From positions 1-40,635 of the forward strand of contig LFWW01000022.1 in assembly GCA_001273385.1 (NCBI GenBank): a stretch of 40,635 bases of DNA, in the 5' to 3' direction. Shown piece after piece: positions 24,508 through 32,462 of this stretch (position 1 is its first letter; every line of letters starts with the position of its first letter). Position numbers and translations under genes: made by a program. Source of the DNA: a miscellaneous Crenarchaeota group-6 archaeon AD8-1. Lineage in GTDB: Archaea; Thermoproteota; Bathyarchaeia; Bathyarchaeales; Bathycorpusculaceae. Below the pieces are notes generated by a model that was not told the origin of the DNA, did not search any database, and saw only the letters and a program-made list of their open reading frames with translations.

Positions 24508-25308
24508 ATGAAAACTTGGCGTTTGATTCCTCTTAGTACTAATGATGCTTTTATGAATATGGCAATTGATGAAGCAATTTTAATATCTAAGATAAAGAAT
24601 TTTATTCCAAATACTATTAGATTTTATCAATGGAATCCCAGTGCAGTAAGTATTGGAAGAAACCAAAACATAAATGAGCAAATTTATCCCCAAGCCCTCA
24701 AAGAATATCAAATAGATGTTGTTCGAAGAACTAGTGGTGGGGGAGCCGTATATCATGATCAAAATGGGGAAGTAACTTATAGTTTAACTGCAACAATAAG
24801 TGATCTTGGTTCAGATTATACCTCAGTTTATCAGAAGGTCTACTCTGCAATTATTGATTCTCTTAGACTATTGGGAATACCTGCAGATTTCGTAAAAGGA
24901 GATATTAAAAATTGTCCAAATTTAGCGGTTAATGGTAAAAAAATATCAGGGAGTGCTCAAACAGTGAAACGCAAAATTATACAACAACATGGTACAATAC
25001 TATTAAGTGTAGATCTACAAAGAATGTTTAAGTTATTACGTCTTAAAGGGTTGGATTGTGATTTAGCTACTGAAATAGGCAAAAGAAAAATAACTAGCAT
25101 AGAAAATGAGGTAAAGCACTTAATTTCTGCTACTACTGTGGCTAATGCTTTAGAACAAGGATTTAATGCAAAATTAAAAATTAAACTGAAACCAGATAAA
25201 TTAATTTCGAGCGAAGAAACTTTGGCAAAAAGATTGTATAAACAGAAATATTTAACGAATGAATGGAATCAGAAAGGACAATTTAGCTCTTTTTTAAATA
25301 CCATCTGA
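24508..25308 (+). CDS. lplA: Lipoate-protein ligase A (LplA catalytic domain)
   Basis: The product is 266 residues from ATG 24508. It activates lipoate (or octanoate) with ATP and attaches it to a lysine of carrier domains such as GcvH or 2-oxoacid dehydrogenase E2. Motifs: 'NMAIDEAIL', 'FYQWNPSAVSIGRNQN', the acyl-binding 'RRTSGGGAVYHD' (73-84) and the catalytic-lysine motif 'NGKKISGSAQ' (142-151). It has an LplA core but no clear LplB-type accessory domain; archaea often encode that separately, and none is seen here. Its 3' end overlaps cysS by 26 bases, tail to tail. The two BioB-like radical SAM genes 3-6 kb on give a lipoate-synthesis context. Confidence 0.9.
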   Translation: MKTWRLIPLSTNDAFMNMAIDEAILISKIKNFIPNTIRFYQWNPSAVSIGRNQNINEQIYPQALKEYQIDVVRRTSGGGAVYHDQNGEVTYSLTATISDLGSDYTSVYQKVYSAIIDSLRLLGIPADFVKGDIKNCPNLAVNGKKISGSAQTVKRKIIQQHGTILLSVDLQRMFKLLRLKGLDCDLATEIGKRKITSIENEVKHLISATTVANALEQGFNAKLKIKLKPDKLISSEETLAKRLYKQKYLTNEWNQKGQFSSFLNTI

Positions 25309-26698
25309 TCCCGTGAGGAGTATCCTCGAGAATAATTCCCATATTTTTTAGTTTTTTCCGAATTTTATCTGATTTACTCCAATTCTTGTTTTTACGCGCT
25401 TCTTCTCTTTCTTTTATTAAAATTTCGGCTTCTTTCGGTAAAGAGCATTTATCCAAATCTCCAATAATCCCTAAAACACTGTCAAATCCTTTCATGACAT
25501 CTATTATTTTTTCAGCATCTTCTCTACGAATTAGGTTTTCGTCCAACAAATTGTTAATCTCTCTAATAAAATCAAATAAAACAGCTAACATAACACTTAC
25601 ATTCAAATCGTCGTTTAAAGCATCACAAAAATCTTTTTTTACTATCTCTATTTTTTTCTCTATTTCTTTATTACAGGATTGTCCATCTGTTTCTTGTAAT
25701 CGCCTTAAAAAGTTCCTTAAACGTTCAATAGCTCGACTAGCACTTTCTAATCCCTCAAAAGTAAAATTTAACTGAGCTCTATAATGAGTGGACAATAATA
25801 ATAATCGAATTGCTTTTGGGTCAATGTCTTTTTTGATAAGATCACGCAAAGTGTAATAATTTCCCATTTTCTTTGACATCTTGCAACCTTCAACTAGCAA
25901 ATGTTCGTTATGAAGCCAATAATTCACAAATTTCTGACCTGTTGCTGCCTCACTTTGAGCGATTTCGTTTTCATGATGAGGAAAAATATTGTCTACCCCT
26001 CCACAGTGAATATCAAATGTTTTACCTAGATATTTCATAGACATTGCAGAACATTCAATATGCCAACCGGGTCTTCCTTTGCCTAGCTTGGTTTCCCAAA
26101 ATACTTCACCATCCTTTGCAACCCAAGCTTTCCAAAGAACAAAATCTTGTACTTGATCTTTTTCATATTCATCTGCTTTGATTCGTTTTCCTAATTTCAG
26201 TTTATCAATCTTTATTTTTGACAATTTACCATATTTATCAAATTTCCTGATTGAAAAATAAAAAGATTTTTCCTTGCTTTTATATGCAAATCCTTTAGAT
26301 AATAGACTCTCAATTAGATCCACCATTTCTGGTATATGCTCAGTAGCTCTGGGATAGCAGTTTGCAAGTTTTATATTTAAACTTTCTAAATCCTCAAAAA
26401 AAGCTTTTGTGTAAAAATTTGTAAATTTCTTGAAAGAAATTTTTTGTTTTTTACTTCGTTTAATTGTTTTATCATCCACATCAGTTATATTCATGACATG
26501 AAAAACTTCAAATCCTAAATACTCAAGCCATCTTTTTACCAGATCTTCAAAGATAAAAGCACGAAAATTTCCAATATGTGCGTAATCATAAACTGTGGGT
26601 CCGCACGTATACATACGAATTTTTCCTGGATTTATGGGATTAAACTTTTCTTTTTTTCTTGTTAATGTGTTAAAAAACACAAGTTGGTTTTTATGCAT
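25283..26698 (-). CDS. cysS: Cysteinyl-tRNA synthetase
   Basis: The product is 471 residues from ATG 26698, the usual length. Class I motifs are 'MYTCGPTVYDYAHIGNFRAF' (zinc ligand C32, HIGN at 41-44) and 'EHLLVEGCKMSKKMGNYY' (KMSKS loop), with further zinc-site residues in 'GWHIECSAMS' and 'IFPHHENEIAQSEA'. The DALR anticodon-binding helices and a C-terminal 'IRKKLKNMGIILEDTPHGIRW' complete it. The organism therefore has a direct Cys-tRNA route. No operon partner is visible. Confidence 0.97.
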   Translation of the reverse strand: MHKNQLVFFNTLTRKKEKFNPINPGKIRMYTCGPTVYDYAHIGNFRAFIFEDLVKRWLEYLGFEVFHVMNITDVDDKTIKRSKKQKISFKKFTNFYTKAFFEDLESLNIKLANCYPRATEHIPEMVDLIESLLSKGFAYKSKEKSFYFSIRKFDKYGKLSKIKIDKLKLGKRIKADEYEKDQVQDFVLWKAWVAKDGEVFWETKLGKGRPGWHIECSAMSMKYLGKTFDIHCGGVDNIFPHHENEIAQSEAATGQKFVNYWLHNEHLLVEGCKMSKKMGNYYTLRDLIKKDIDPKAIRLLLLSTHYRAQLNFTFEGLESASRAIERLRNFLRRLQETDGQSCNKEIEKKIEIVKKDFCDALNDDLNVSVMLAVLFDFIREINNLLDENLIRREDAEKIIDVMKGFDSVLGIIGDLDKCSLPKEAEILIKEREEARKNKNWSKSDKIRKKLKNMGIILEDTPHGIRWYLKKS

Positions 26699-26789
26699 AT
26701 CATTTAAGACTCGTATGGAGTACTTGTTTCTAAAATTATTTAAGGCTTATACTTCTCAAATATTCATTTAATAAATTTAGTTTAAAATT

Positions 26790-28424
26790 TCAATTTTTTA
26801 GAGTATTCTTGGTTTTATTTTTTCCTTTATTACGGGTTGCAACCAAATAAACTCCCATAATAATTATTATGATAATTAATGATAAACTCAATATCAATAA
26901 AATAGGAAAGGGAGCAATATTAAAAAAAACCGTCTCAGAATTTCCAGTATTTCCAACAACATCTGTTGCATAAAAATTTATACAATGAGATCCTTCAGGA
27001 AGAACAGCTAGAGTTATGTTTCCTGCAATTGTAATAGTTTCTTGTCCATCAAGACTATATCCAAGCCAAGATACTGGTTCATCTATTATGATGGTGGAAT
27101 GAACATCTAACTCTCTATAGGTTTTATTTTCAGGAGATAAAACTGAAATAGTTGGTGGTTTAGTGTCAACTGAAAAGTATGTTACATTTGAGCATATAGT
27201 ATTTCCAAAAGTATCATTAATGTAAACAATTATTTTATGTGATCCATCATTTAATCCTACGAGAATCTTATCACCGTTTGTAGTTGCATTTGGCTTATCA
27301 TCTAAACTATATCCAATCCAACTTGTTGCTCTATTTACTGAAATAATAAGTGAAACATTATTTGAAGGATAGATTTTATTTTCTGGGGATATTATTGAAA
27401 GTTTAGGCAATATTGTCCCATATTCTAGAGGTGTGTATTGCTCATTGATATCTAGCCATATATTGCCATCAAATCCTCCGATAACAAAAAAGACGTCATC
27501 AAATCTTGCAAGAGCCATATTTGCTCTAGGTATTGGTAGTGGTTCCGCTATTGTCCAGTTATTATTTTCAATATTATATGCATAATTTGTATTACTATAT
27601 CCTTGATGATTCATACCCCCAATATAATAAATTAAGATTGGAGCTGTTATTCCGATAGTTATTCCAGATGCTCCATGACTTTTTGCAGTTGGCATTGCAG
27701 CTAAATTCCGCCACGCATCAATTTTGGGATCATACATCTGATTGAATTGAACTGCAGTTGCTGTTCCTCCCTCTTCAAACTGGCGAGCTCCTCCAAGTAT
27801 GTATATTTTTCCTTCAATTACAGCTGAACCATATCCAAAGACTGGGATAAACATAGGAGATTTACTAATCCATGAATCATTACCAGGGAAGTAAACTTCG
27901 TTATTATTTACTTGTTGATAATATGGATTAATACCAGTGAATTTCTTTCCGCCAATAAGGTAGATTGCATCATTTACTATATTTGCAGATAAATCAGCTC
28001 TGGCAGTTGGCATTGAAGTTTTTACTTCCCATTCATCAGTGATGGGATCATATACTTCTGTTAATGAAGTTAATTCTGGATTATCGATATTTCCAGTTAT
28101 TCCTCCAAAACAATAAATTTTACTTTGAAACACTGCTATAGAAAAGCTACTTCTAGCAGTTGGCATTGAAGCTTTTTGGCTCCAAGTGCCTGTGGCTATG
28201 TCATACACTTCGTTCTTATCAAGATTTCCATTCTCATTTTGACCACCAATAACAAAAATTTTTCCATCGAACTCGGCAATCCCATGTTCTCCCCTCTTTG
28301 TGGGCATCGGTGATAAAGACAACCATTCGTTTTCAGAAGCTTTTCCAATAAAATTATAGGAATTAAAATTTAAGCCAGAGACAATTAAGATTATTATAAT
28401 CAATAGAAGGAAATTTTTCTTCAT
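26790..28424 (-). CDS. Secreted, membrane-anchored Kelch-repeat protein with two Ig-like repeats
   Basis: The product is 544 residues from ATG 28424. Residues 1-28 are a signal peptide or anchor. Residues 35-340 hold about six Kelch blades, each with a 'MPTARSSFSIAVFQSKIYCFGG' type unit; the repeated 'MPTAR' leaves visible DNA repeats. Two near-identical Ig-like units follow (about 345-435 and 436-515), both opening 'SPENK.Y' and carrying 'SW.GYSLD'. A membrane helix (about 517-540) and a Lys/Asn-rich tail end the protein, so it should display a beta-propeller outside the cell. The function is unknown; carbohydrate or protein binding is usual. Confidence 0.85.
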   Translation of the reverse strand: MKKNFLLLIIIILIVSGLNFNSYNFIGKASENEWLSLSPMPTKRGEHGIAEFDGKIFVIGGQNENGNLDKNEVYDIATGTWSQKASMPTARSSFSIAVFQSKIYCFGGITGNIDNPELTSLTEVYDPITDEWEVKTSMPTARADLSANIVNDAIYLIGGKKFTGINPYYQQVNNNEVYFPGNDSWISKSPMFIPVFGYGSAVIEGKIYILGGARQFEEGGTATAVQFNQMYDPKIDAWRNLAAMPTAKSHGASGITIGITAPILIYYIGGMNHQGYSNTNYAYNIENNNWTIAEPLPIPRANMALARFDDVFFVIGGFDGNIWLDINEQYTPLEYGTILPKLSIISPENKIYPSNNVSLIISVNRATSWIGYSLDDKPNATTNGDKILVGLNDGSHKIIVYINDTFGNTICSNVTYFSVDTKPPTISVLSPENKTYRELDVHSTIIIDEPVSWLGYSLDGQETITIAGNITLAVLPEGSHCINFYATDVVGNTGNSETVFFNIAPFPILLILSLSLIIIIIIMGVYLVATRNKGKNKTKNTLKN

Positions 28425-28524
28425 TTTCTAATTGTCTCCATGATTATCTTTAAAATAATAATTGGTTTTACATTTATATGATTACCATAATTAACTTGAT
28501 TGATTAATTGATAGTTTATAGATA

Positions 28525-29508
28525 TTAAAGAAATTCTGAATATATTTGAGCACAACAACTATAATGAAAAACAATTTTATAATCTTGACTTTTTGCATAG
28601 CTTATGATTTCTTCTGATGGAAAGGCGATTGCATCAACACCTGCTTTAAGTGCATAAAATTCTATGGTTTTTCGTTCCTTGCCTTTTTGACGCATACAAC
28701 CAAGTGCTATTCCTGTTTTTGGAAAAGTTAATCTTGTTGCTACAAGAACCTTAGCTACATCCTTAGGATCAGAAGTTTGGAATTTTTCCATATTTGTTCC
28801 TTTAATTGGTATAAATGCGATTATAACGATAGCTGAAGGTTTTGTTGAAGAAATAATTCTTAGCGAATTGAATTCACCTTCAAGTTTGCCATTATTTAGT
28901 CCTACAATAATATGAGGAACAAATTTTACTCCAGCTTTTTGCAGAGCTTTTAATGAATTTTTATAATCTATTAGTTTTAATTTATTGTCCAATTTTCCAA
29001 GAGTGTTTTCTGAACCAATAACATCTATTAAAGCTAAGTCAATTTTTGCTTTTTTTAGTTTTTTCGCAGTTTCTAAGTTTATAATGCCTGTATGAACAAA
29101 AACCTCTAAATCCAACTCATTTTTAATCCTAGCGATAGTTGGCAAAAATTGTGCAAGTGGGATTGATCCATCAATTTGGCAGCCACCACTTATTAGACAT
29201 CCTATTCCCCCTTCTTTTTTAAGTGTATAAGCTGCTTGATATAGTGATTTTGGAGTGATGGTTGGTTGCATTGAACCAAGAATTTTTCCTTCGCAATGTT
29301 TACATTTTAGCATGCACTGCTTGCCAGTTATTGAATATGTTTGAAAAAGATTTGGGATAGTTTTATAATATTTTGTTTTTAGAGGAATAAAACTTGGAAT
29401 ATAGAAATTAATCACTTTGGGCTGAGGGATTAGGGTTCCAGAATTTAAATAATTTAACAATTCATTTGAATTTTTTTCCCAATTTCTAGTGTGATTAAGT
29501 TCTATCAT
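28525..29508 (-). CDS. BioB-like radical SAM protein, probable archaeal lipoyl synthase subunit (LipS-type)
   Basis: The product is 327 residues from ATG 29508. The radical SAM cluster motif is 'GKQCMLKCKHCEGK' (C65-x3-C69-x2-C72). The barrel continues with 'IGCLISGGCQIDGSIPLAQF', 'EVFVHTGIINLETAKKL', 'FVPHIIVGLNNGKLEGE' and 'IIAFIPIKGTNM'. Extra cysteines in 'LGCMRQKG' and 'HYSCCAQIY' could bind a second, sulfur-donating cluster. Thermococcus kodakarensis makes lipoate with two such proteins, LipS1 and LipS2. This one, its partner at 30113 and the nearby LplA fit that pair. I do not assign which subunit it is. Other BioB-like sulfur-inserting roles remain possible. Confidence 0.7.
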   Translation of the reverse strand: MIELNHTRNWEKNSNELLNYLNSGTLIPQPKVINFYIPSFIPLKTKYYKTIPNLFQTYSITGKQCMLKCKHCEGKILGSMQPTITPKSLYQAAYTLKKEGGIGCLISGGCQIDGSIPLAQFLPTIARIKNELDLEVFVHTGIINLETAKKLKKAKIDLALIDVIGSENTLGKLDNKLKLIDYKNSLKALQKAGVKFVPHIIVGLNNGKLEGEFNSLRIISSTKPSAIVIIAFIPIKGTNMEKFQTSDPKDVAKVLVATRLTFPKTGIALGCMRQKGKERKTIEFYALKAGVDAIAFPSEEIISYAKSQDYKIVFHYSCCAQIYSEFL

Positions 29509-29543
29509 GGGATAAATTAAATTACTAAAGAATAAATGTGTGT

Positions 29544-29906
29544 CTATTTTCTATCTTTGATCTTTTGATCATGTTTTTTAAGTTCATGTGTAGTAAAAAA
29601 GCGTATGCTATCTTGAGCCTTATTTATTTCTTGAATATTGGTTTGCAGTTTTTTAAGTTGTTTAGTTATTTTTATGGTTTTATAAATAGCTAAGCCTCTT
29701 TTTGTGAGAGAGTATAGTGTGTTTTTTTTGGATATTTTTTCCTCAATTAATTTGTTTTTAAGAAGAAACTCCAATCTAGCTATGAGAGCTACACAATCCA
29801 TGTTTACACAATATGCTATTACATCTATAGATTTTGAATTATTATAGAGTGAACATAGGATGTCTTCATAGAGCATCAGTTTTGATCTTCTCATAAGTGA
29901 GTGCAT
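29544..29906 (-). CDS. Winged-helix DNA-binding protein
   Basis: The product is 120 residues. The start is ATG 29906 or the second Met (29894). The N-terminal 'RRSKLMLYEDILCSLYNNSK', then 'DCVALIARLEFLLKNKLIEE' (recognition helix) and 'TLYSLTKRGLAIYKTI' (wing and final helix) form a standard archaeal winged helix. The last 40 residues are a charged helix suited to dimerisation. It lies 35 bases upstream of one radical SAM gene on the same strand and is divergent from the other, a natural position for a local regulator, though nothing shows what it binds. Confidence 0.75.
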   Translation of the reverse strand: MHSLMRRSKLMLYEDILCSLYNNSKSIDVIAYCVNMDCVALIARLEFLLKNKLIEEKISKKNTLYSLTKRGLAIYKTIKITKQLKKLQTNIQEINKAQDSIRFFTTHELKKHDQKIKDRK

Positions 29907-30112
29907 CTCATTTTTGAGATGTTTTTTCTTTAGATAAAGGATTTGTGAATTTTAGATCTTTAATCCAAACTATTATTTTTGAAACATAGTATTTTTTTGA
30001 ATCCTAAATGAAATTAGAACCAAATTCTATATACTTCTTTTGGAGATATGCTTTAGCTGTATTTGCTCTTTGAGGAAGCTTTCCTACGATTAAATTAGAT
30101 TATATTCAAGAA

Positions 30113-31099
30113 TTGATACCGAAAATTCGAGTTTCAGTAGGATCGGCTGCAGTTCTTAAATTGTTAAATTGTAGAGTTGATGTCTTTCCAACAACAATTC
30201 ATTTAATGACATATTATCCAAACAAATGTGATGCTAACTGCAGTTTTTGCCCCCAAGCAAATACTAGCAGCAGCAAATCTTTGTATCTATCTAGAATTTC
30301 ATGGCCTGAATTTCCAACAGATAATGTTTTGGTAACTTTAAAAAATGCATACACAGATAGGATCATTCAAAGAGTTTGTATTCAAGCACTGAATTACCCA
30401 GATGTTTTTGAACATATAGATTTAATAATTCGCTCTATAAGAAATTATTCCAAAATTCCTATTTCAATATCATGTCAACCTTGGAATCATGAAAATTTAT
30501 TTCATTTGTTTAATATTGGCGTTGATAGAATTGCCATTCCAATTGATGTGGCTACAAAAACTTTGTTTAATAAACTTAAAGGTGAAGATGTTAAAGGTCC
30601 TTATGTTTGGGAAAGGCAGCTTTTAAAATTAAAAGAAGCGGTTAAGATTTTTGGAAAAGGAAAAGTTACAACACACTTAATTGTGGGTCTTGGGGAGTCT
30701 GAAAAGGATTTATTGGGATTAATACAATATTTTTTTGATCAAGGTATATTAACCGCGCTTTTTGCTTTTACACCTATTCGAGGAACTCGATTACAAAGTA
30801 GAAGTCCGCCTTCAATTGCTTCATATAGGCGGATTCAATTAGCAAAATATCTAATAGAACATAATTTGGTTAGATTTGATGAATTGATATTTGATGATAA
30901 TCATCGACTGATTGAATATGGAGTAAATAAAAGCATATTAAATAACGAAGTTAAAACAGGTGTTCCTTTTCTTACATCTGGTTGTCCAAGTTGCAATCGT
31001 CCATTTTATAATGAAAAACCTAGGGGACCTTTGTATAATTTTCCTCGTAGTTTGTCTGCAGAAGAGATTTCTCAAATAAAAAATCTGTTAGATCTATAA
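30113..31099 (+). CDS. BioB-like radical SAM protein, probable second lipoyl synthase subunit (LipS-type)
   Basis: The product is 328 residues. The only in-frame start candidate is TTG 30113, without a clear ribosome site. Motifs: 'KIRVSVGSAAVLKLLNC', 'FPTTIHLMTYY' and the cluster 'NKCDANCSFCPQA' (C39-x3-C43-x2-C46). Then 'LSRISWPEFPTDNV', 'THLIVGLGESEKDL' and 'ALFAFTPIRGTRL' follow. A C-terminal pair 'TSGCPSCNRPFYNE' (C291, C294) is suited to an auxiliary cluster. These are the features of the archaeal 'biotin synthase-related' proteins, of which two act together as lipoyl synthase in Thermococcus. Both types occur here, divergent around a winged-helix gene, with LplA close by. Confidence 0.7.
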   Translation: MIPKIRVSVGSAAVLKLLNCRVDVFPTTIHLMTYYPNKCDANCSFCPQANTSSSKSLYLSRISWPEFPTDNVLVTLKNAYTDRIIQRVCIQALNYPDVFEHIDLIIRSIRNYSKIPISISCQPWNHENLFHLFNIGVDRIAIPIDVATKTLFNKLKGEDVKGPYVWERQLLKLKEAVKIFGKGKVTTHLIVGLGESEKDLLGLIQYFFDQGILTALFAFTPIRGTRLQSRSPPSIASYRRIQLAKYLIEHNLVRFDELIFDDNHRLIEYGVNKSILNNEVKTGVPFLTSGCPSCNRPFYNEKPRGPLYNFPRSLSAEEISQIKNLLDL

Positions 31100-31133: not shown

Positions 31134-32462
31134 TCATTTTTTTGATTTTTTATTTTTTATCTGTTGTAGATTAGGTTTTTGTCGGGTTATTGATTCTACC
31201 AGTCTCCAAAAATCGTTCATATTGTATCCTTTTTGTAGTTCTTTCATTAATTTTTTGATTTGATAAAAAGTAATTTGTGCTTCACCCTTGTCAAGACTTT
31301 CTTGAGGTCCTTTAATTCTTCTAAATAGTTGATCTATTTGTCTAGGTGATGCTCTTATACCAGCTTTTTCTAAGATTTGTTGAATTAATGATTGACCAGT
31401 ATTTCTCCCAATAAACAAGCTTGTTGATCTGCCAACGATTTCAGGTGGAAAAGGTTCATATAACATTGGAGTTGATTGCATTTCTTCTAAAGCTTGGTCG
31501 ATTTCATGAGTGAATGCCGCATCTCCAATTATCGGTTTGTGGAATTGAATCGGCAAAGCAAATGCTTTTTCTGCTGTTTGAGCCAATCTATAAATTTTAC
31601 CCTGATCTACTCCCGTGTCTATATTATATAGCAACTCTAATGCGGTAACCACTTCTTCGAAGGGTGCTATTCCTGCTCTTTCTCCAAAGCCTGCTATGCA
31701 CGTGTGAAGATACACAGCTCCCTCTTCTACTGCTGCTAAAGTGTTTGCAGTAGCTAATCCAAATGCATTGTGACAATGGATACCGAGAGAAAAATTCTCT
31801 TTTGTTTTTTCATTTAGTTCATTTCTTATTTTGGACATTAAATACCTCATAGATAATGGTCTAAGAAAACCTACACTATCAGCTAGGATTAGCTTGCTTA
31901 CTCCAGTATTAATCGCGGCTGTAAAGCATTCAATTATCTCCTCTATCGGTGTTCTAGAACCATCAATTAACACAAAATTCGCCTTTGCATTGTGTTTTCG
32001 CACATAATCGATGCTATTTACAAGTTGGGCTAGAGCCTCTTTTTTTGTTAATCTTAATCTGTTTTTGAGATTTAATCCATTAAATGGCATTTCTATTGTT
32101 ATTTCTTTTATTCCACATTCTAAACACGCATCTACGCTTTCCTTATTTGCGTGAGCTGAGGCTGTGAGTTTTGCATTCTCGAAAGTTTCGTTTACAATTC
32201 TTTTTACATTATGTTTTTCTCCTTCGTACAAGGCTGGAAAACCTACATTAATAATTGATATTCCAGAATCATCCATTAGTTTCGCTAGCTTAACTTGTTC
32301 AACATATGTCAAAAAAACTGTTGGAGTTTTTATGCTTTCACGAAAGGATTCGTCCCAAATAAAAACTTTTTTTTGTAATCTGGAAGGCAAGTTTTTTCTT
32401 AATCTATTATAATTTGCAATAAGTCCTTGTGACTCTAGCTTCTTAAAAATGCTTTTTCTCAT
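31134..32462 (-). CDS. DRE-TIM metallolyase family enzyme (isopropylmalate/homocitrate synthase-like)
   Basis: The product is 442 residues from ATG 32462. The TIM barrel opens with 'VFIWDESFRES', a variant of the D-T-L-R-D-G-E-Q motif that keeps the metal-binding Asp and catalytic Arg. It continues with 'GISIINVGFPALYEGEK', 'VLIDGSRTPIEEII', 'LADSVGFLRP' and 'LGIHCHNAFGLATANTLAAV' (HxH metal ligands). 'FGERAGIAPFEEVVTALELL' completes the signature. A C-terminal helical region replaces the LeuA regulatory domain. The family condenses acetyl-CoA with 2-oxoacids or cleaves the products; the substrate is unknown. It is convergent with the second radical SAM gene, 34 bases apart, which may or may not be functional linkage. 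Confidence 0.85.
   Translation of the reverse strand: MRKSIFKKLESQGLIANYNRLRKNLPSRLQKKVFIWDESFRESIKTPTVFLTYVEQVKLAKLMDDSGISIINVGFPALYEGEKHNVKRIVNETFENAKLTASAHANKESVDACLECGIKEITIEMPFNGLNLKNRLRLTKKEALAQLVNSIDYVRKHNAKANFVLIDGSRTPIEEIIECFTAAINTGVSKLILADSVGFLRPLSMRYLMSKIRNELNEKTKENFSLGIHCHNAFGLATANTLAAVEEGAVYLHTCIAGFGERAGIAPFEEVVTALELLYNIDTGVDQGKIYRLAQTAEKAFALPIQFHKPIIGDAAFTHEIDQALEEMQSTPMLYEPFPPEIVGRSTSLFIGRNTGQSLIQQILEKAGIRASPRQIDQLFRRIKGPQESLDKGEAQITFYQIKKLMKELQKGYNMNDFWRLVESITRQKPNLQQIKNKKSKK

Follow-up and report, generated by a model that had tools for sequence, protein, structure and literature searches.

In Thermococcus kodakarensis, the catalytic and auxiliary-cluster ligands of two BioB-like radical S-adenosylmethionine (SAM) proteins, LipS1 and LipS2, have been mapped by mutation, the reference residues being C230, C276, C277 and H159 in LipS1 and C85, C276, C279 and H178 in LipS2 (PMC9585515). 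LipS1 and LipS2 have already been reported in Thermoproteota and in mesophilic archaea as part of the sLpl(AB)-LipS1/S2 pathway (PMC10332631). For the enzyme that loads the acceptor protein, the LplA-N part has been defined by the motifs RRxTGGGxxxHD and G(R/K)K(I/L/V)SGxAQ (Borziak et al., PMC3904984).

Here, we describe a lipoate-assembly locus in contig LFWW01000022.1 (the window, 40,635 nucleotides in full), which belongs to a metagenome-assembled genome of Candidatus Bathyarchaeota that is 92.8% complete and consists of 83 contigs. The locus is of a known type, with a variant loading enzyme and a client that known enzymes do not explain. Three genes are central to it:

24508-25308, + strand: LplA-fold protein of 266 amino acids, a variant with a Cys-Pro-Asn (CPN) loop and no LplB partner, either a ligase or a Cys-type octanoyltransferase (PF21948, E 2.6e-44; NF053750 LplA_large, 146.9 bits; AlphaFold model)
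28525-29508, - strand: LipS1, radical SAM protein (NF053742, 222.5 bits against 53.8 for bioB; invariant cluster ligands; clade support 100/100)
30113-31099, + strand: LipS2, radical SAM protein predicted to insert the first sulfur, at C8 (NF053743, 333.8 bits; invariant ligands)

Identification of LipS1 and LipS2

The original prediction, made from the DNA alone, had described two radical SAM proteins with the motif C-x3-C-x2-C and extra C-terminal cysteines on either side of a winged-helix gene, and had read them as LipS1 and LipS2. The open reading frames (ORFs) and motifs were confirmed, and the reading is supported by profile membership, ligand sets and a tree with BioB as outgroup. The assignments of window ORFs to Pfam and NCBIfam families were far beyond chance. 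LipS2 scored above the curated cut-off of 270 bits and reached only 31.9 bits against bioB. The match of LipS1 extended over the whole profile (cut-off 230), with bioB as the next best family, and the same profile was matched by each of the 16 aligned LipS1 proteins (the window protein and 15 relatives).

Residues C65/C69/C72, H199, C271, C318 and C319 were invariant in the alignment of 16 LipS1 proteins, as were C39/C43/C46, C89, H188, C291 and C294 in that of 24 LipS2 proteins, and counterparts of all the T. kodakarensis reference ligands listed above are present in the two window proteins. In a radical SAM tree that included BioB and LipA from E. coli and from which the T. kodakarensis sequences were left out, the LipS1 proteins, including that of the window, formed a single clade (100/100) distinct from BioB and LipS2, and the LipS2 proteins formed one weakly supported group (59/73). 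Judged by these sequence comparisons, the genes at 28525-29508 (-) and 30113-31099 (+) are LipS1 and LipS2. A search for bacterial-type LipA, as suggested earlier, revealed none among the 34 radical SAM matches of the genome, and the ORFs examined never combined CxxxCxxC with CxxxxCxxxxxC.

LipS2 was detected in 58 of 61 genomes at a loose threshold, 50 of them above the curated cut-off, and the locus is lineage-wide since all 37 good genomes of the order contained LipS2. De novo lipoylation in this lineage, as had been proposed, is consistent with the presence of LipS1, LipS2 and GcvH, but the lineage-level claim is not new because the pathway, including its occurrence in Thermoproteota, has been published (PMC10332631).

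Another segment of the same genome (contig C6, 1025-27515) held about 10 radical SAM matches within 28 kb, many of the TSRGCPFxCxFC type.

A variant loading enzyme

The gene at 24508-25308 was the only LplA/B catalytic-domain gene detected in the genome, and no second loading enzyme was seen. Its product retains the LplA-N motifs RRTSGGGAVYHD and GKKISGSAQ, and the best match of its AlphaFold model (predicted local distance difference test score 92) in the PDB was 3r07_A, the LplA of T. acidophilum (template modelling score 0.84). The original call of LplA thus holds for fold and motifs, but not for the loop that precedes the GxKK motif. In ND-type ligases this motif is preceded by [K/R]P[IV]ND, whereas the window protein is without the N-D and has a loop about 6 residues longer, reading NCPNLAV, in which the cysteine (C136) is invariant.

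The LplB profile NF053749 had no match in the host genome or across its genus (four genomes). A candidate at C72:15794-15904 (PF10437, 16.1 bits) was rejected as a weak partial match within a 205-amino-acid nucleotidyltransferase-like ORF. Genes for proteins of 222-242 amino acids that adjoin LipS2 or LplA in relatives were likewise rejected on inspection of their sequences, which were predicted to be membrane-anchored or were highly charged, and had no LplB features. LplB was found in none of the 11 genomes in which the CPN form was read, whereas the LplA proteins read beside LplB in 10 genomes were all of the ND type, although these genomes are related and do not represent independent events. 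In a tree inferred after removal of the loop columns, 15 of the 16 CPN proteins grouped together (93/90), separate from the LipM-like protein, and the remaining one (L170) had a long branch and was not placed.

From its sequence, the protein can be classified as an LplA-fold protein that is not a canonical archaeal LplA. Because a Cys loop replaces the N-D loop of the ligases and no LplB was found, Cys-dependent transfer from an acyl thioester, for example octanoyl-CoA, is slightly favoured over ATP-dependent ligation, with a probability that we put near even. A conversion of LplA into a transferase, in parallel to LipM, is plausible here since repeated origins of LipM from LplA, following the loss of LplB, have been inferred (PMC10332631).

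The strongest alternative, to which we assign somewhat less than an even chance, is that the protein is an ordinary ATP-dependent octanoate or lipoate ligase, working without LplB on free octanoate or scavenged lipoate, and that the Cys loop is incidental. LplA is both the top profile and the top structure match, the lipoyl-AMP motifs RRxSGGGAVYHD and GKKISGSAQ are intact in the sense of Borziak et al. (PMC3904984), and most CPN proteins fall among the archaeal LplA proteins in the tree, apart from the LipM-like protein. This is countered by the requirement of T. acidophilum for LplA-C/LplB (PMC3904984), by the loss of an N-D that is conserved in all ND-type ligases, by the invariance of Cys136 and by the occurrence of CPN forms in genomes devoid of LplB.

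The neighbour of LipS2 and its possible link to octanoyl supply

A further gene lies next to LipS2:

31134-32462, - strand: divergent HMG-CoA-lyase/isopropylmalate-synthase (HMGL/IPMS)-like enzyme, convergent with LipS2 (PF00682, E 8e-52)

An HMGL/IPMS-like gene was the commonest neighbour of LipS2 within the family, with 24 of 28 loci (17 within 400 bp), compared to none of the 23 loci from other families. The protein is distinct from the LeuA-like paralogs of the genome (864 versus at most 289 bits), and its metal-site motifs are altered, with FRES in the place of LRDGEQ and GERAGI in the place of the GERAGN found in the genome's own LeuA-like protein. Genes of the beta-oxidation type (crotonase, 3HCDH, acyl-CoA dehydrogenase) and CoA-transferase A/B were located beside LipS2 and the HMGL-like gene in some relatives from the family (L071:662-6083, L077:10313-12645 and L099:1-5422).

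The HMGL-like enzyme could provide the precursor of eight carbons (C8), either through elongation of 2-oxoacids or through acyl-CoA chemistry, and thereby join octanoyl supply to lipoyl synthesis. Such a role would fit the frequency of the gene next to LipS2, the co-occurrence in several relatives of CoA-transferase A/B, acyl-CoA dehydrogenase, 3-hydroxyacyl-CoA dehydrogenase and enoyl-CoA hydratase in the same stretch, and the acknowledged gap concerning the donor for archaeal transferases that operate without LplB (PMC10332631). Nevertheless, we consider it unlikely. The replacement of the catalytic metal-site Asp by Glu and of Asn by Ile makes condensation activity doubtful, and adjacency within a single family may reflect shared ancestry. 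A connection to the supply of octanoyl is possible, though weak, because several other genomes with LipS1 and LipS2 have no close orthologue (f4, f6 and f9) or carry it at a distance from LipS2 (f2 and f7).

GcvH as probable acceptor in the absence of glycine cleavage

The host genome encodes one GcvH, located on a different contig from the window (C16:4558-4965), with the lipoyl lysine in the motif ESVKAVSD and a score of 134.9 against TIGR00527 (cut-off 115.85). It is followed by a gene for a flavoprotein of the CoA-disulfide reductase family, and then by GAPDH and PGK. The pair of GcvH and flavoprotein genes is conserved across the order, in genomes with as well as without glycine cleavage. 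The lipoyl lysine was retained in all 31 GcvH sequences, and the 28 flavoproteins that were read contained a single-Cys motif, usually YSRCGLPF.

Neither GcvT nor GcvP yielded a match in the host genome or across its genus (four genomes). Both were missing from 16 of the 37 good genomes of the order, and all 16 retained GcvH and LipS2. The expected lipoyl-domain protein is present as GcvH, the sole lipoyl acceptor that was found, but an E2 protein or other lipoyl/biotinyl domain (PF00364) was not found in the host genome, with a control that was positive in 14 of 14 genomes. Since the genomes that lack both GcvP and GcvT all keep GcvH and LipS2, lipoate in these genomes must have a use other than classical glycine cleavage. 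Our best guess, to which we give a little less than even odds, is a thiol/persulfide or electron-carrier role of lipoyl-GcvH together with the flavoprotein. A literature search on lipoate in Bathyarchaeota, or on GcvH with CoA-disulfide reductase in archaea, returned nothing relevant.

A role of the lipoyl-GcvH in a sulfur-oxidising sHdr system, corresponding to that of LbpA, seems improbable. The suggestion comes from the relative G037, in which a sHdr-like cluster (L119:3334-10585) contains HdrB/C-like genes, a GcvH/LbpA-like gene, a LipT-like FAD protein, a fused Lpl(AB) and a second LipS2. However, the only GcvH of the window genome matches bona fide gcvH above the cut-off, and it is encoded beside GAPDH, PGK and the CoA-disulfide-reductase-type flavoprotein rather than beside Hdr genes.

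Other GcvH-like proteins were observed among the compared loci. Those of 195-221 amino acids in L287 (5576-6163), L289 (5642-6232), L297, L309 and L310 have an N-terminal segment resembling a ribbon-helix-helix and are without the lipoyl lysine (ETWMFMFD instead of ESVKAVSD); the genes in L287 and L289 adjoin Hdr-like genes. A third class, of the FESVKTVLD type, is located beside arrays of cysteine-motif proteins of about 140 amino acids (L301:570-3092 and L322:2488-6952), and L322 carries two further LplA-like ORFs.

Proposed pathway

In the pathway that we propose, the protein encoded at 24508-25308 would first attach an octanoyl group to the GcvH lysine. LipS2 would then supply the sulfur for C8 and LipS1 that for C6, each drawing on an auxiliary Fe-S cluster of its own, as suggested by homology and by the fact that every ligand mapped by experiment is conserved. 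Finally, the FAD disulfide reductase encoded beside GcvH may redox-cycle the lipoyl-GcvH, a step suggested by the conservation of the gene pair throughout the order. Loading followed by sulfur insertion by LipS2 and LipS1 is, from the sequence evidence, very probably the lipoyl-cofactor pathway at this locus. That the radical SAM proteins are instead biotin synthases or another sulfur-insertion pair, as their shared fold and weak bioB matches might suggest, is highly improbable given the profile scores (222.5 versus 53.8 bits for LipS1 and 333.8 versus 31.9 bits for LipS2), the full LipS-specific ligand sets in both and the absence of PF00364 from the genome, so that no biotin carrier target was found.

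Several points weigh against the proposed pathway. The LipS1 score is slightly below the curated cut-off (222.5 versus 230), and the tree lacks the T. kodakarensis LipS1 and LipS2 sequences themselves. With no functional glycine cleavage system and no E2, the need for lipoate is unexplained by known enzymes. At a completeness of 92.8% and with 83 contigs, the absence of LplB, LipA, GcvT and GcvP from a single genome is no proof, a caveat that is softened for GcvT, GcvP and LplB by their absence throughout the genus (four genomes).

A broader scenario would have an LplA-fold protein lose both LplB and the ligase loop and acquire a catalytic Cys, separately from LipM, LipL and LipB, in a large group of Bathyarchaeia and use octanoyl from a CoA-type thioester, and would also have the lipoyl-GcvH so produced act as a stand-alone dithiol carrier with a CoA-disulfide-reductase-type flavoprotein outside glycine cleavage. 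Both parts together make a speculative combination that we regard as rather unlikely. To our knowledge, archaea are without the usual acyl-carrier route to octanoate. Published work has left open the octanoyl donor of archaeal loading enzymes that lack LplB (PMC10332631), and a defined Cys-loop class tied to the absence of LplB allows this question to be addressed with a single purified protein and a single mutant. All 16 good genomes that lack GcvP and GcvT have kept GcvH and lipoyl synthase, which points to lipoate being used outside the known complexes in an abundant lineage of sediments.

Gene neighbourhood

The other genes in this part of the window are:

25283-26698, - strand: CysS (ORF present at this position)
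26790-28424, - strand: Kelch-repeat protein (ORF present at this position)
29544-29906, - strand: winged-helix protein (HTH_45 / Sso10a-like) between LipS1 and LipS2 (PF14947, E 3.6e-9)

The LplA-like gene is located 3.2 kb from LipS1, but since an unrelated cysS and a Kelch gene intervene, it forms a neighbourhood with the radical SAM genes rather than one operon. Among the 51 compared loci, just 11 had LplA at a distance of less than 8 kb from LipS2. LipS1 was near LipS2 in 38 of the 51, on the opposite strand every time; in the window the two genes are divergent, with the winged-helix gene between them. The winged-helix protein is a candidate local regulator, and 17 of the 28 family loci have a homologue of it close to LipS2. 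Genomes of the same genus (L109 and L110) preserve the arrangement of genes from cysS to beyond the HMGL-like gene, and GcvH, LipS1, LipS2 and LplA form one cluster in the f6 genomes (L078, L080 and L082). At their 3' ends, the convergent LplA-like and cysS genes overlap, a pairing also observed in the family members L085, L109 and L110.

Comparison with known systems

The GcvH of the host resembles the H protein of the glycine cleavage system in its profile score and lipoyl lysine. Unlike in that system, neither GcvT nor GcvP was found in the host, and the partner flavoprotein is of the CoA-disulfide reductase type, with one active-site Cys, rather than a classical lipoamide dehydrogenase. 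The loading enzyme shares with the octanoyl and amido transferases LipM and LipL the absence of LplB and a longer, Cys-bearing loop in the same region ahead of the GxK motif. It differs in that the Cys-Pro-Asn is about 6-8 residues away from the cysteine of the LipM-like CFDxPSxYE in the alignment, in that it groups apart from the LipM-like protein and in that the profiles score it as LplA. Identity with LipM was not adopted because of the different Cys position and the preference of the profiles for LplA.

In comparison with the sLpl(AB)-LipS1/S2 pathway (PMC10332631), no LplB was found here, no LipT was identified nearby, the loading enzyme has a CPN loop and the typical archaeal order lipS2-lplA-lplB-lipS1 was not seen, but LipS1, LipS2, a loading enzyme of the PF03099/PF21948 family and the absence of LipA are common to both. 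The genes for LipS1 and LipS2 are neighbours in the window, whereas they are more than 130 genes apart in T. kodakarensis, yet both systems have two BioB-like radical SAM proteins with identical radical-SAM and auxiliary-cluster ligands (PMC9585515).

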